Shown here one piece after another: positions 4,829 to 9,131 of a DNA stretch of 64,000 nucleotides; positions within the stretch are counted from its first letter, which is position 1; each line of letters begins with the position of its first letter. A program made the translations under genes and the position numbers. Below the pieces are notes generated by a model. It saw nothing but the letters and a program-made list of their open reading frames with translations, had not been told where the DNA came from and did no database searches. This stretch comes from Halobacterium salinarum DSM 3754 (GTDB taxonomy: Archaea > Halobacteriota > Halobacteria > Halobacteriales > Halobacteriaceae), in the NCBI RefSeq assembly GCF_008124605.1, contig NZ_VRYN01000005.1:1-64000 (forward strand), written 5' to 3'.

Positions 4829-5173
4829 TGGTCGGTCCACCGGGAGCCGGGTGTGGATGATTGGGTCTGTGCCACTCGTATGTGAACGTTGGGCTGCAGC
4901 GGGATAAGACTGCTACCGCATCGGTGCGCGCGCGACCGTGGTTTGACTACATCACTCGCCGCTGGACGGTATGACTCGCTCGTGCAGCCGAGTGTGTACA
5001 TAGCACATATCATTCTGAGAGTGGATTCCGGGGTCGTGGTGCCGGGTTCGACCGGTGCTCCGCCAGCCGCTCAGTCGGTGGTTATCAACGAGTGCGAATC
5101 TAGCAGGCAAAACACTTCCGGATTCTAGGCTAGCCTACATTTCTGGGGTGCGTACAAACCACCACCTCACAAC
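4829..5173. promoter_or_regulatory. Divergent intergenic region between the DtxR-like and halocin-like genes
   Basis: These 345 bp contain no convincing gene. They must hold the promoters of both divergent genes. GC is lower than in the core regions, especially from about 4960 onward. A perfect 12-bp palindrome lies near the halocin-like gene and is listed separately. No tRNA or clear transposon end was recognised. Confidence 0.6.
5126..5137. promoter_or_regulatory. 12-bp perfect palindrome upstream of the halocin-like gene
   Basis: TAGGCTAGCCTA is its own reverse complement and ends 36 bp before GTG 5174. If the transcript is leaderless or nearly so, this places it at or just upstream of the core promoter, where a dimeric repressor could block TBP/TFB. 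An AT-rich stretch (ACATTTCT, 5137-5144) directly downstream could be the TATA element. The link to any regulator, including the neighbouring DtxR-like protein, is inference. Confidence 0.35.
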
Positions 5174-5938
5174 GTGCCACGTGCGTTCACGCAGCTCCGC
5201 GAAAAGGCCGTGGACCTCGGCTACTCATTCGCCTGGAGTGATACTACCCTCACCGTGGCTGTTACTGAGACAGAAGACTTCAAACGCGAAGTTGCCTCGT
5301 ATGAGCTTCAGGACGCGGCAGAAAACAGTCGTGCGGGGATCATTCTCGGACGCCACCCCGAATCCCAGGAGATCGCCATTGCACAGCTCGACGTCGAGCG
5401 TTCCCACGACGATGGCGCATTCAAAAAGCTCGAACGAGACGACCTGCTGGGCGACGATTCATCCGAGACCGACCCAGCCATTGCGACTGACCGTTCCGGC
5501 GGAATCGATGGCTCGTTCACGAAGACAACCGAGGAACCGAGCAAACAGGCTGTCGAGGCGTTGATCGATGACCTCAGCCACGTACAGGATGCAAAAGGCC
5601 CGAGCGCGCAACTCGACCTGCCATCCCTAGATGACCTCCCGGACCTTCCGGATGAGCTAGACGTCAGTGGCTGCGATGGCTGCTATTTCGCCTCAGGAAT
5701 TATCTGCAAAAAGCTCTGTGGGGCCTTCGGCGGGGTAGTTTGTGGGGTTCTCGGCAGAAGCGTTGTCGGAGGTGTTGGGTATGGTACGCTCGTCACGGCT
5801 GTCTGTAAGGTCGCCGAGGCCGCAACCGATGGATGCGGCGACAGCATCGGTGCGACAATCTGTAAGTCCTCTGGGATTGGTGTGTGTGGACCGGATAAGC
5901 CAGGTGAAATAATTGAAGTACCGCTCCCGAATATATAA
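5174..5938 (+). CDS. Halocin C8-like bacteriocin precursor
   Basis: A 254-residue protein. The N-terminal ~140 residues are acidic and soluble, with no twin-arginine signal or membrane segment; an acidic Leu/Pro/Asp linker follows (about 147-163). The C-terminal part (about 163-238) is small, hydrophobic and Cys/Gly-rich, with nine cysteines at 167, 170, 178, 182, 190, 211, 221, 230 and 238. The spacing and neighbouring residues (GCDGCYFASGIIC, GGVVCGVLG, DGCGDSIGATIC) closely follow mature halocin C8, which from memory is a 76-residue, ten-cysteine peptide released from a larger precursor whose N-terminal part gives immunity. Here the tenth cysteine position is Tyr-Gly, and a 16-residue tail follows the last cysteine. 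GTG 5174 is the only in-frame start after the upstream stop at 5126. Confidence 0.82.
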   Translation: MPRAFTQLREKAVDLGYSFAWSDTTLTVAVTETEDFKREVASYELQDAAENSRAGIILGRHPESQEIAIAQLDVERSHDDGAFKKLERDDLLGDDSSETDPAIATDRSGGIDGSFTKTTEEPSKQAVEALIDDLSHVQDAKGPSAQLDLPSLDDLPDLPDELDVSGCDGCYFASGIICKKLCGAFGGVVCGVLGRSVVGGVGYGTLVTAVCKVAEAATDGCGDSIGATICKSSGIGVCGPDKPGEIIEVPLPNI

Positions 5939-5946
5939 CGTAAATA

Positions 5947-6159
5947 ATGGGAGACGTTACTATTGGATTCGGACTAGGCAGCGTTTCCACGCGGGCAGCC
6001 GCTGCTGCCGTCGCTGTCGGCTCATCGCTGCTGATGCTAGTGGCCTACATCGCCCTTGGTCGGAACCCGATCGCCGCCCTCTCTGAGGCTACATTGAGTG
6101 GGATCGTTATTGGCGTCGCCTACTACATCGGTCTGTCAGTCCGGTCCGTGGCGAACTAA
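5947..6159 (+). CDS. Small two-helix membrane protein in the halocin-like operon
   Basis: A 70-residue protein starting 8 bp after the halocin-like stop, so almost certainly co-transcribed. It has two hydrophobic helices, at about 17-38 (AAAAAVAVGSSLLMLVAYIA) and 47-65 (ATLSGIVIGVAYYIGLSV), joined by a short loop. No family is recognised. By position and topology it could be an immunity protein, an export helper or a membrane partner of the precursor. Function is inference. Confidence 0.65.
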   Translation: MGDVTIGFGLGSVSTRAAAAAVAVGSSLLMLVAYIALGRNPIAALSEATLSGIVIGVAYYIGLSVRSVAN

Positions 6160-6721
6160 ACCGTCTCGTCCCGAGGAACAATCGTTACCGTAACTTGGGG
6201 GCGCTGGCTGGTAGATCGGATCCAATCACTACGCCGCTGGCACCACCACCATCAAGTGACAGGTACAGCAGCCAGTTATCGCGGCTTAGCCATTTGATTG
6301 CACTCAATCCTGCACGCTTACCGGTGGTTGAATCCACCTAATACGCTCAAACCCTCGAATCCAGTACAGGCCGTGCTTTTCGTATATCACTCTCAGATTT
6401 ACGACTGTCTTCATTCCAATACCAGGAATCGTGTGTTCCAAGCAGCTCGCTTCCGCAGACAGACGCCACACACCGGATTTGGTGATCGTCGGTTCACCAC
6501 CTCGCACGGATCACAGTGGAAACTACGCGATGAGGAACTTACCATGCGCAGATTTGGACGTGAACACCGGTTGGCGGAACATAGCCACCGCTTGGCAATC
6601 GTTGTCTTGCTGTTGCAGGGGTGTACAACAGTTCTACAGGACTGCGTGATCCGCGTTTTCCCCACTCAAAGGGATAGAACCAAAGAGTGCCGTGGTGATG
6701 ACTGTCCCGGAAATTCTCTGG

Positions 6722-6940
6722 CTAACTCCGACAGTATTCTGCGTTGACCTGAGTAACGTCGTCAAACGGAAGATCTTGATACGCTGTGTTGATTCCCCAC
6801 GTGAGCGTCACGGTAAGTTCCACCCGTGTACTATGAGGAACGCCGCCAAGATAATCAACCAGCTGTGTGCGTAACGCAATCACTCCGGCCACCGACCAGT
6901 GAGACAGGGTGATGCATTGGTCCACCATGGTCGATACCAA
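6722..6940 (-). CDS. Possible small gene of unknown function in the gene-poor segment
   Basis: A 72-codon minus-strand frame, or 68 codons from the second ATG at 6928. Its composition is protein-like, with few Arg, regular hydrophobics, and segments such as GVIALRTQLVDYLGGV and WGINTAYQDLPFDDV. A TATA-like TATATGTATAAT lies about 20-30 bp upstream of the second ATG. No family is recognised. It could be a small accessory protein or a surviving piece of a decayed larger gene. Confidence 0.28.
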   Translation of the reverse strand: MVSTMVDQCITLSHWSVAGVIALRTQLVDYLGGVPHSTRVELTVTLTWGINTAYQDLPFDDVTQVNAEYCRS

Positions 6941-7636
6941 AAGTTAACGCGATTATACATATAGTTTGGCCGATGTAACTGTGGCCACGAGCCGCGGACT
7001 CCACAGGGCATCCAGACAGTAGTACGGTACTCACTGACCCACCGCCTGCCGAGCTTGGGCAAACACATTCTGAGCCGAGCTGTGGCGGCCTTGCTGGTCG
7101 GCGCAAAGCGGCGCACCACCGGCTCTTCGATACCTGCGTTCAGATGCCATCGGATCGTCAATACTCTGTGGCGAAGCCTTCGGCACCGGGAATTGGTCCA
7201 ACATTGCATCACGAGGAACTCACGATTTGAACATCGCTGATGTTACGCCGGGCTCCGTTCGGATAGAACGTGGTGTCCCCTTCAGGTTGGCTGTTTTGTG
7301 GGCTGGTCTGAGGGCGCGACACGTATACGGCTGCGCTAGACCACGCAGCTATCGACGGTCGCCTACCGAGTGTGCCGGGGTCGCCACTGTGCCGGCGTCA
7401 GTGAGTTGATCGCCGAGTGCCAGGTTTCCGGCTGTGTACGAGTTCAAGACCGCCCACTCGATACACGGTTATACACCGGCGTGCAACCTCCCCTCATCCG
7501 GTGGCATCTATTTATCTTTTTGTGTGGTACTCCACGTTCCAGCGGGAATCCTCTTCTATGGAATCAAATCGAAAGAAATCCTCTTGTCTAGACCTTCTTT
7601 GGCGACCTGAACCAGGCCCGGAGAACCGATAAAAAC

Positions 7637-7643
7637 ACTTATC
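7637..7643 (+). promoter_or_regulatory. TATA-like element before the DUF5805-like gene
   Basis: CACTTATC within ATAAAAACACTTATCTC is the best TATA match upstream of the DUF5805-like/integrase pair. Its distance favours the downstream ATG at 7688, leaving a leader of about 20 nt, over ATG 7649, which would lie too close. Confidence 0.35.
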
Positions 7644-7687
7644 TCTGTATGGGGAACATTGAAGTGAGCCGTGGCTGTTGGCCCTGT

Positions 7688-8065
7688 ATGGGAGACACTG
7701 ATCGCGCCGTCGTGAAGACGTACGTGCCAGCGGACCAGAAAGCCACGTGGCAGGATCACGCCGAGCGATTAGATATGACGCAAAGCGAGTTCCTCCGAAC
7801 GATGGTGCAGGCCGGACGACGGGGGTTCCTGGACGACAGTCCAGACGGTGGTTCTAGCGACGCAACCCCTAGGGGTGATGCCCTCGAAGACCGGGTTCAA
7901 TCGATGGTCGACGAAGGGGATGCGGTGTCCTGGGATGAGTTAGTCGCTCAACTGGCGGGGGACTTCGAGGACCGGATCGACACCGCGGTGCAGTCCCTCG
8001 CAGACGATGGTGTGATTCGGTTCGACCCGCGACGCGGTGGCTACGTTTCCCAGGCTGATGAGTGA
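7688..8065 (+). CDS. Small DUF5805-like protein coupled to the recombinase
   Basis: A 125-residue acidic protein. The N-terminal half (RAVVKTYVPADQKATWQDHA, then LDMTQSEFLRTMVQAGRRGF) matches, from memory, a haloarchaeal family (DUF5805) often found directly before integrase genes and resembling a ribbon-helix-helix DNA-binding fold. The C-terminal half (about 75-120) looks like a small winged helix ending in FDPRRGGYV. ATG 7688 gives the family-like start; ATG 7649 would add 13 unrelated residues. It overlaps the recombinase gene by 8 bp (ATGAGTGA). A role as excision or expression modulator is inference. Confidence 0.65.
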   Translation: MGDTDRAVVKTYVPADQKATWQDHAERLDMTQSEFLRTMVQAGRRGFLDDSPDGGSSDATPRGDALEDRVQSMVDEGDAVSWDELVAQLAGDFEDRIDTAVQSLADDGVIRFDPRRGGYVSQADE

Positions 8066-9131
8066 GCCACGTGATTCCTTGGCGAGGGAGACCGATGCTG
8101 ATGCGCGTGACGATCCTATCGGCTACTTCCTCGAGGACATGCAGTATCACGGCAAAGCAAAGCGAACCCGGGACGCGTACGCACGCGTCCTCCGGTCGTT
8201 CGAAGCGTTCCTTTCGAACGCCGGCGCGCAGCCGGTCGACGCCGGCCGCCGGGATTGCTTGACCTGGGTGCATCACCTCCGCGAGCAGTACGCCGAAAGC
8301 ACGGTCGCGACGTACGCGTCGTACGTGAACCGGTTCTACAGTTACATGCAGCAGGTCGGCGTCGTTGACGGGAATCCGATGGCGTTGGTCAGCCAGGAGA
8401 TGGACGAGGCCATCGACACGAACCCCACTCGGAGGGACATCTCGGTTGCGGCGATGCGGGAGTTCATCGCGGACATCACCCACCCGTTGGAGCGCGCCGT
8501 GATCGTTGGACTGCTGAAAACCGGGCTTCGAGTCGGCGAGCTCTGCAACCTCGACCTCCGGGATGTCAACCTGGACGCGCCGGCTGTCTCCTCCGCCTAC
8601 GAGGTGGGGGTACGCGGCCAGCTCGGCAGCCACCCCGACACGCTGTACGTTGATCCGGCGATGAGCCGTGGCGAAACGGTCAACGGCGAGCAGCGCTCGG
8701 CGTCGAACAAGCGCAAGCGTGCCACGCTCGTCCCCCTTGACCGGGAGTTGAAAACCGAACTCGTCCGGTGGTTGGCGATTCGACCGGACACCACATCGCC
8801 TGCCGACCCGGTGTTCGTGAGCACGCAGGACGCATGGGGCAAGCGTCTGACGCCGGAGATGGTCCGAGGGATGGTGCGGCGACACGCCGAACCCCGCGGG
8901 TGGTATCACAAAGGTGGGGACGCCGCCGAGAACGTAACGCCACATTACTTCCGGCATTTCTTCACGACGCATCTCCGGAACCGGACTGGTGATCGCGGCG
9001 TCGTGAAATACCTCCGCGGCGACGTGGCCGACGACATCATCGACACGTACACGCACAACTGGGGGGATCGAGTACGGGAGGTGTACCTCAATCACATCTA
9101 TTCGCTGACTACCACCCATGGAGGAGGTTGA
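8058..9131 (+). CDS. Tyrosine recombinase / integrase (XerC/D-like)
   Basis: A 357-residue recombinase of the lambda-integrase family. The N-terminal SAM-like core-binding domain spans about residues 20-110 (KRTRDAYARVLRSFEAFL). The catalytic domain has the box I Arg in LLKTGLRVGELCNL (about residue 155), a basic Lys strand (NKRKRATLVPL), and HYFRHFF with the His-x-x-Arg pair. The third-position His (usually LGH) reads LRGD, and the nucleophile is probably the Tyr of DTYTHNW. From memory, this LRGD variant occurs in other haloarchaeal integrases. ATG 8058 overlaps the upstream gene, implying coupled translation. No attachment site or tRNA could be recognised nearby. Confidence 0.85.
   Translation: MSEPRDSLARETDADARDDPIGYFLEDMQYHGKAKRTRDAYARVLRSFEAFLSNAGAQPVDAGRRDCLTWVHHLREQYAESTVATYASYVNRFYSYMQQVGVVDGNPMALVSQEMDEAIDTNPTRRDISVAAMREFIADITHPLERAVIVGLLKTGLRVGELCNLDLRDVNLDAPAVSSAYEVGVRGQLGSHPDTLYVDPAMSRGETVNGEQRSASNKRKRATLVPLDRELKTELVRWLAIRPDTTSPADPVFVSTQDAWGKRLTPEMVRGMVRRHAEPRGWYHKGGDAAENVTPHYFRHFFTTHLRNRTGDRGVVKYLRGDVADDIIDTYTHNWGDRVREVYLNHIYSLTTTHGGG

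Follow-up and report, generated by a model that had tools for sequence, protein, structure and literature searches.

What is encoded at positions 5174-5938 of the window, the 64,000-nucleotide stretch of Halobacterium salinarum DSM 3754 DNA analyzed here? An earlier note had described a halocin C8-like precursor with nine cysteines instead of ten, a 16-residue tail and an N-terminal half without a twin-arginine signal, and had suggested that the peptide leaves by another route, that it acts inside cells, or that the N-terminal half is a new immunity or regulatory domain. We conclude, with a probability of roughly 0.7, that the open reading frame is the relic of a halocin C8-like precursor gene that lost its 5' end recently, and that it is probably inactive. 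The locus has the following features.

5174..5938, + strand: halocin C8-like precursor ORF, 5'-truncated, 254 aa, with a GTG start and without ~58 N-terminal residues of intact relatives
5174..5182, no strand: breakpoint; DNA homology to the Haloferax larsenii and Halobacterium plasmid loci starts at 5182-5185 and ends at about 6162
5183..5443, + strand: incomplete Hac8_like_N domain (PF22862) covering profile positions 19-105 of 106; this is the N-terminal/HalI part, 94-96 bits
5672..5887, + strand: halocin C8-like peptide domain (TIGR04449), residues 167-238, with nine of ten cysteines and Tyr for C203, 26.1 bits
5888..5935, + strand: C-terminal tail of 16 residues, matched in length and for the most part in sequence by intact relatives
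5947-6159, + strand: intact hydrophobic protein of 70 aa with one clear and one weaker hydrophobic stretch, the conserved 3' neighbor of this precursor subfamily

The basic description of the ORF was borne out: it spans 5174-5938, has nine cysteines and a 16-residue tail, and has no twin-arginine signal. The halocin C8 profile search proposed in the earlier note returned a match above the curated cut-off (TIGR04449 against residues 167-238, 26.1 bits, cut-off 24), and PF22862 matched residues 4-90 with 94 bits (cut-off 27). Together with the alignment to relatives, these matches support common ancestry with halocin C8. All nine cysteines of the ORF fall within residues 167-238, with exactly 16 residues following Cys238; ten are expected in the mature peptide. 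The N-terminal half is the known Hac8_like_N domain, incomplete in that profile positions 1-18 are missing, and this match rules out a new N-terminal domain. Likewise, the tail is no oddity, as it has the same length in intact relatives (GPNESGDIINVDIPYI in Haloferax) and is standard in the subfamily. An AlphaFold2 model of the 254-aa ORF was unusable (pLDDT 32), the PDB held no related sequence, and a fold search with the model of an intact precursor returned nothing under E 0.001.

Relatives of the ORF are scattered. In a 392-genome sample of the class, PF22862 matched in 22 (E up to 0.001) and TIGR04449 in 47 (E up to 0.01). The other 12 genomes of the genus yielded no homolog of the ORF; the gene is therefore sporadic, and was probably acquired horizontally. 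We rejected a viral origin, as neither phage records nor viral contigs contained a match (the viral contigs were scanned with short patterns). The closest intact relatives, from Haloferax larsenii and Halobacterium plasmids, are 310 aa long and about 60% identical to the ORF. The Haloferax larsenii precursor (WP_206536420.1; also in JCM 13917, L115) shares 61% identity over ORF residues 5-254, the same order of PF22862, TIGR04449 and 16-residue tail, and the same small membrane-protein gene on its 3' side. Unlike the ORF, it has 310 aa, an RR signal, a complete PF22862 domain, ten cysteines and an upstream divergent 75-aa gene. The precursors on Halobacterium plasmids (GSL-19, salinarum and GN101; 58% identity) have the same architecture and neighbors as the ORF but are full length, with the signal and ten cysteines present. 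In Natrinema strain AS7092, ProC8 is described as a 283-aa protein that is exported by the Tat route and from which processing yields HalI and a 76-aa peptide (PMC11509114). Compared by description, ProC8 and the ORF both have a C-terminal cysteine-rich peptide after an N-terminal, HalI-like part, whereas in the ORF the signal, one cysteine and a portion of the HalI-like domain are missing.

Several other members of the family depart from the full-length form. The copy in Halobacterium NRC-1 (L078, pNRC200, 5857-8180) has a peptide part independently broken by insertions of ISH30 and ISH27. L042 (G003, same genus), L016 (G091) and L009 (G033) look damaged as well, with a lost or broken signal, and so does L018 (G057), which has an incomplete set of cysteines and no RR motif. 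Two further proteins, L028 (G146) and L017 (G343), have the Hac8_like_N domain but neither a Tat signal nor a halocin peptide, and are possible stand-alone immunity or regulatory forms.

Full-length relatives define what the ORF has lost. Almost every one carries an RR motif near its N terminus (MTDKKPNRRKVLKGMAALGSVGIG in Haloferax; from the alignment), and in nearly all of them this motif plus ~40 further residues precede the point at which the ORF starts. The ~58 residues that precede this point in relatives comprise the twin-arginine signal and the first helix of a predicted helix-loop-helix. Correspondingly, intact Haloferax larsenii matches PF22862 over positions 1-106 with 154.5 bits, and the match of the ORF starts at position 19. 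Neither the ORF nor the 15 open-frame codons upstream of it encode a twin-arginine motif, and the first 40 residues of the ORF include no hydrophobic stretch and no signal of any kind. Searching with the signal-peptide parts of two relatives by tblastn gave zero upstream matches in any frame, and three-frame translation of 4841-5182 contained no Tat-like stretch. A frameshift masking an intact upstream signal was rejected, since no Tat-like stretch lies near the gene in any frame. Intact genes also have the divergent 75-aa gene ~90 bp upstream and are preceded by AT-rich stretches; this locus lacks the former and, as judged by eye, nothing like the latter comes before the GTG of the ORF. At the DNA level, homology to two independent plasmid loci (64% identity) begins abruptly 8-11 bases after the GTG and extends through the downstream gene to ~6162. 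Thus, the twin-arginine signal is missing because the 5' end of the gene was lost. Its absence, which had been taken as a possible sign of another export route, is explained by this loss, the signal being present in intact relatives.

An abrupt stop in homology would also be seen if the contig had been misjoined at about 5180 and the real gene were full length. The assembly is a draft of 40 contigs, and the junction was found in no other genome. However, searches of the genome itself found the missing part on no other contig, and the protein and the junction DNA each matched one place; the stretch 4841-5300 occurs once. In addition, the C203Y change and the faster evolution of the peptide, described below, are independent of the junction. 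We consider an assembly or sequencing artefact very unlikely.

The breakpoint itself carries no recognizable signature. There is no tRNA in the window, and repeats or inverted ends at 5180 amounted to short, chance-like matches, ruling out an IS or tRNA at the breakpoint. The upstream and downstream flanks had no match among plasmids, and no empty site could be mapped in the genus, as the closest relative of the gene upstream sits in another context.

The lost segment reaches into the HalI-like domain. For the intact Haloferax precursor, AlphaFold2 predicts helices at residues 47-58 and 61-72, followed by beta strands; pLDDT is roughly 55-80 (moderate) in the N-domain, and confidence is low in other regions. 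The ORF begins at about residue 59 of this protein, so the first predicted helix (47-58) is gone. A helix-loop-helix is reported to be essential for HalI immunity in the title of Mei et al., cited as reference 22 in PMC11509114, and we infer that the predicted helix-loop-helix of the intact Haloferax precursor is this motif.

We propose that a horizontally acquired halocin C8-like precursor gene lost its 5' end. What is missing is the region upstream, the Tat signal and, from the predicted helix-loop-helix, its first helix, and the peptide part has dropped one of its ten cysteines and changes faster than in intact relatives. The product, if made, would stay cytoplasmic and could be neither exported nor processed in the way of halocin C8, and HalI-type immunity would probably be gone. 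Given this presumed loss of export, maturation and immunity, we read the gene as a recent relic. The adjoining gene for a small membrane protein remains intact and may still have a use. The oddities of the ORF would thus follow from a lost 5' end plus drift, removing the proposed new domain and export route, and the idea that the product acts inside cells received no positive support from anything found here. The ORF adds one natural deletion in a halocin C8-like gene.

Changes in the peptide part are in keeping with this reading. One cysteine is indeed missing, as the earlier note had it, but a single Cys-to-Tyr change (C203Y, codon TAT) explains the odd number, the ten-cysteine spacing being otherwise kept. 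The column is Cys in every intact close relative and in 34 of the 38 aligned rows family-wide (rows that include two copies of the ORF). Four family-invariant peptide columns are changed in the ORF (C203Y, F206L, D250P and I251L), and an Ile-to-Arg change weakens the central hydrophobic segment, lowering its hydropathy from 2.28 to 1.66. The TIGR04449 score is 26 bits, compared with 46 in intact Haloferax larsenii. From the sequence, the cysteine loss, the Ile-to-Arg change and the four altered invariant columns are consistent with a loss of toxin function.

We compared rates of change in the ORF and in Haloferax by relative-rate tests with six outgroups. For the peptide region and the two nearest outgroups, the ORF had 26 unique changes against 3 and 1 in Haloferax (p = 1.5e-5 and 4.2e-7), and with the other four outgroups the ORF copy was again faster (p 0.0003-0.03). 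The N-domain showed no significant acceleration in a test with few informative columns and low power, and the downstream 70-aa gene was not accelerated (p 0.45-1). Within the ORF, and restricted to columns on which Haloferax and the outgroup agree, N-domain and peptide rates differed significantly with only two of the six outgroups. Nei-Gojobori dN/dS values were saturated and were not used as a main argument.

Rapid change with nine cysteines kept could be toxin diversification, in which case the ORF would be a diverged but active microhalocin exported by a non-Tat route; its start and stop codons are intact. Such a peptide would, however, have to leave the cell with neither a signal nor an N-terminal hydrophobic stretch, and to work with a weakened central segment and without a cysteine that is invariant in intact close relatives. 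The absence of homologs from the other 12 genomes of the genus also argues against it, and we find this the least probable of the readings considered.

How far has the truncated gene decayed? Its reading frame is open over 254 codons, with no stop or frameshift, and all indels are in-frame. When neutral decay of the whole gene was simulated in a simple way, with as many peptide changes as are seen here, only 2-10% of runs stayed free of stops. Most of the divergence therefore arose under coding constraint, and either the truncation is recent or some function remains. We favor a recent truncation as the probable case. The open frame, the nine retained cysteines and the lack of significant acceleration in the remaining N-domain are the points that speak against a relic.

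The open frame would also fit a functional cytoplasmic derivative, in which the signal was lost, the toxin part decayed and the N-domain persists on its own as an immunity or decoy protein. The peptide part is accelerated and the N-domain not significantly so, and L028 and L017 are precedents for N-domain proteins without a signal or full peptide. However, L028 and L017 keep the helix region (profile positions 2-98/101), whereas the ORF has lost the first helix of its N-domain and HalI immunity is reported to need a helix-loop-helix, and the contrast in rates is not significant with four of the six outgroups. A working derivative of this kind thus seems unlikely.

The truncated relic that we favor still adjoins an intact gene of 70 codons, which begins 8 bases past the precursor stop. 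In Haloferax larsenii and Halobacterium, homologs of 66-68 aa are encoded immediately 3' of precursors. By profile search, this 66-70-aa membrane-protein family (homologs L076:6767-6973, L077:6772-6978, L081-L084) occurs in 8 of the 392 genomes, and in 7 of these 8 it shares a contig with a precursor no more than about 3.5 kb away, one of the seven being a weak match. A second, divergent family of 75-aa membrane proteins (L076:5494-5721 and L077:5500-5727, both on the - strand, and L111-L114) is encoded upstream of many precursors. It gave 17 strong matches (57 bits or more) outside the window genome, 11 of them within about 1.5 kb of a precursor. In several genomes the 75-aa gene lies away from any detected precursor, some of its genomes have no detected precursor, and at G191:C1:1526697-1527209 (L103) genes of the 70-aa and 75-aa types are adjacent with the precursor absent. 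Pfam had no significant match for either family. Small membrane proteins that are encoded beside a toxin gene, and that also occur without one, are candidates for immunity proteins, and on the basis of these gene neighborhoods we suggest that both families may be extra immunity proteins. Extra immunity genes of halocin C8-like systems thereby become a testable idea. There is a small chance that the truncated gene persists as the cytoplasmic remnant of a self-protection module, with the 70- and 75-aa proteins as dedicated immunity proteins besides the HalI part.

Beyond the 70-aa gene, the stretch 6160-7648 holds no recognizable gene. It is followed, 1.5 kb downstream, by genes for a DUF5805 protein (7649-8065) and a tyrosine recombinase (XerA/XerC-like; 8037-9131).
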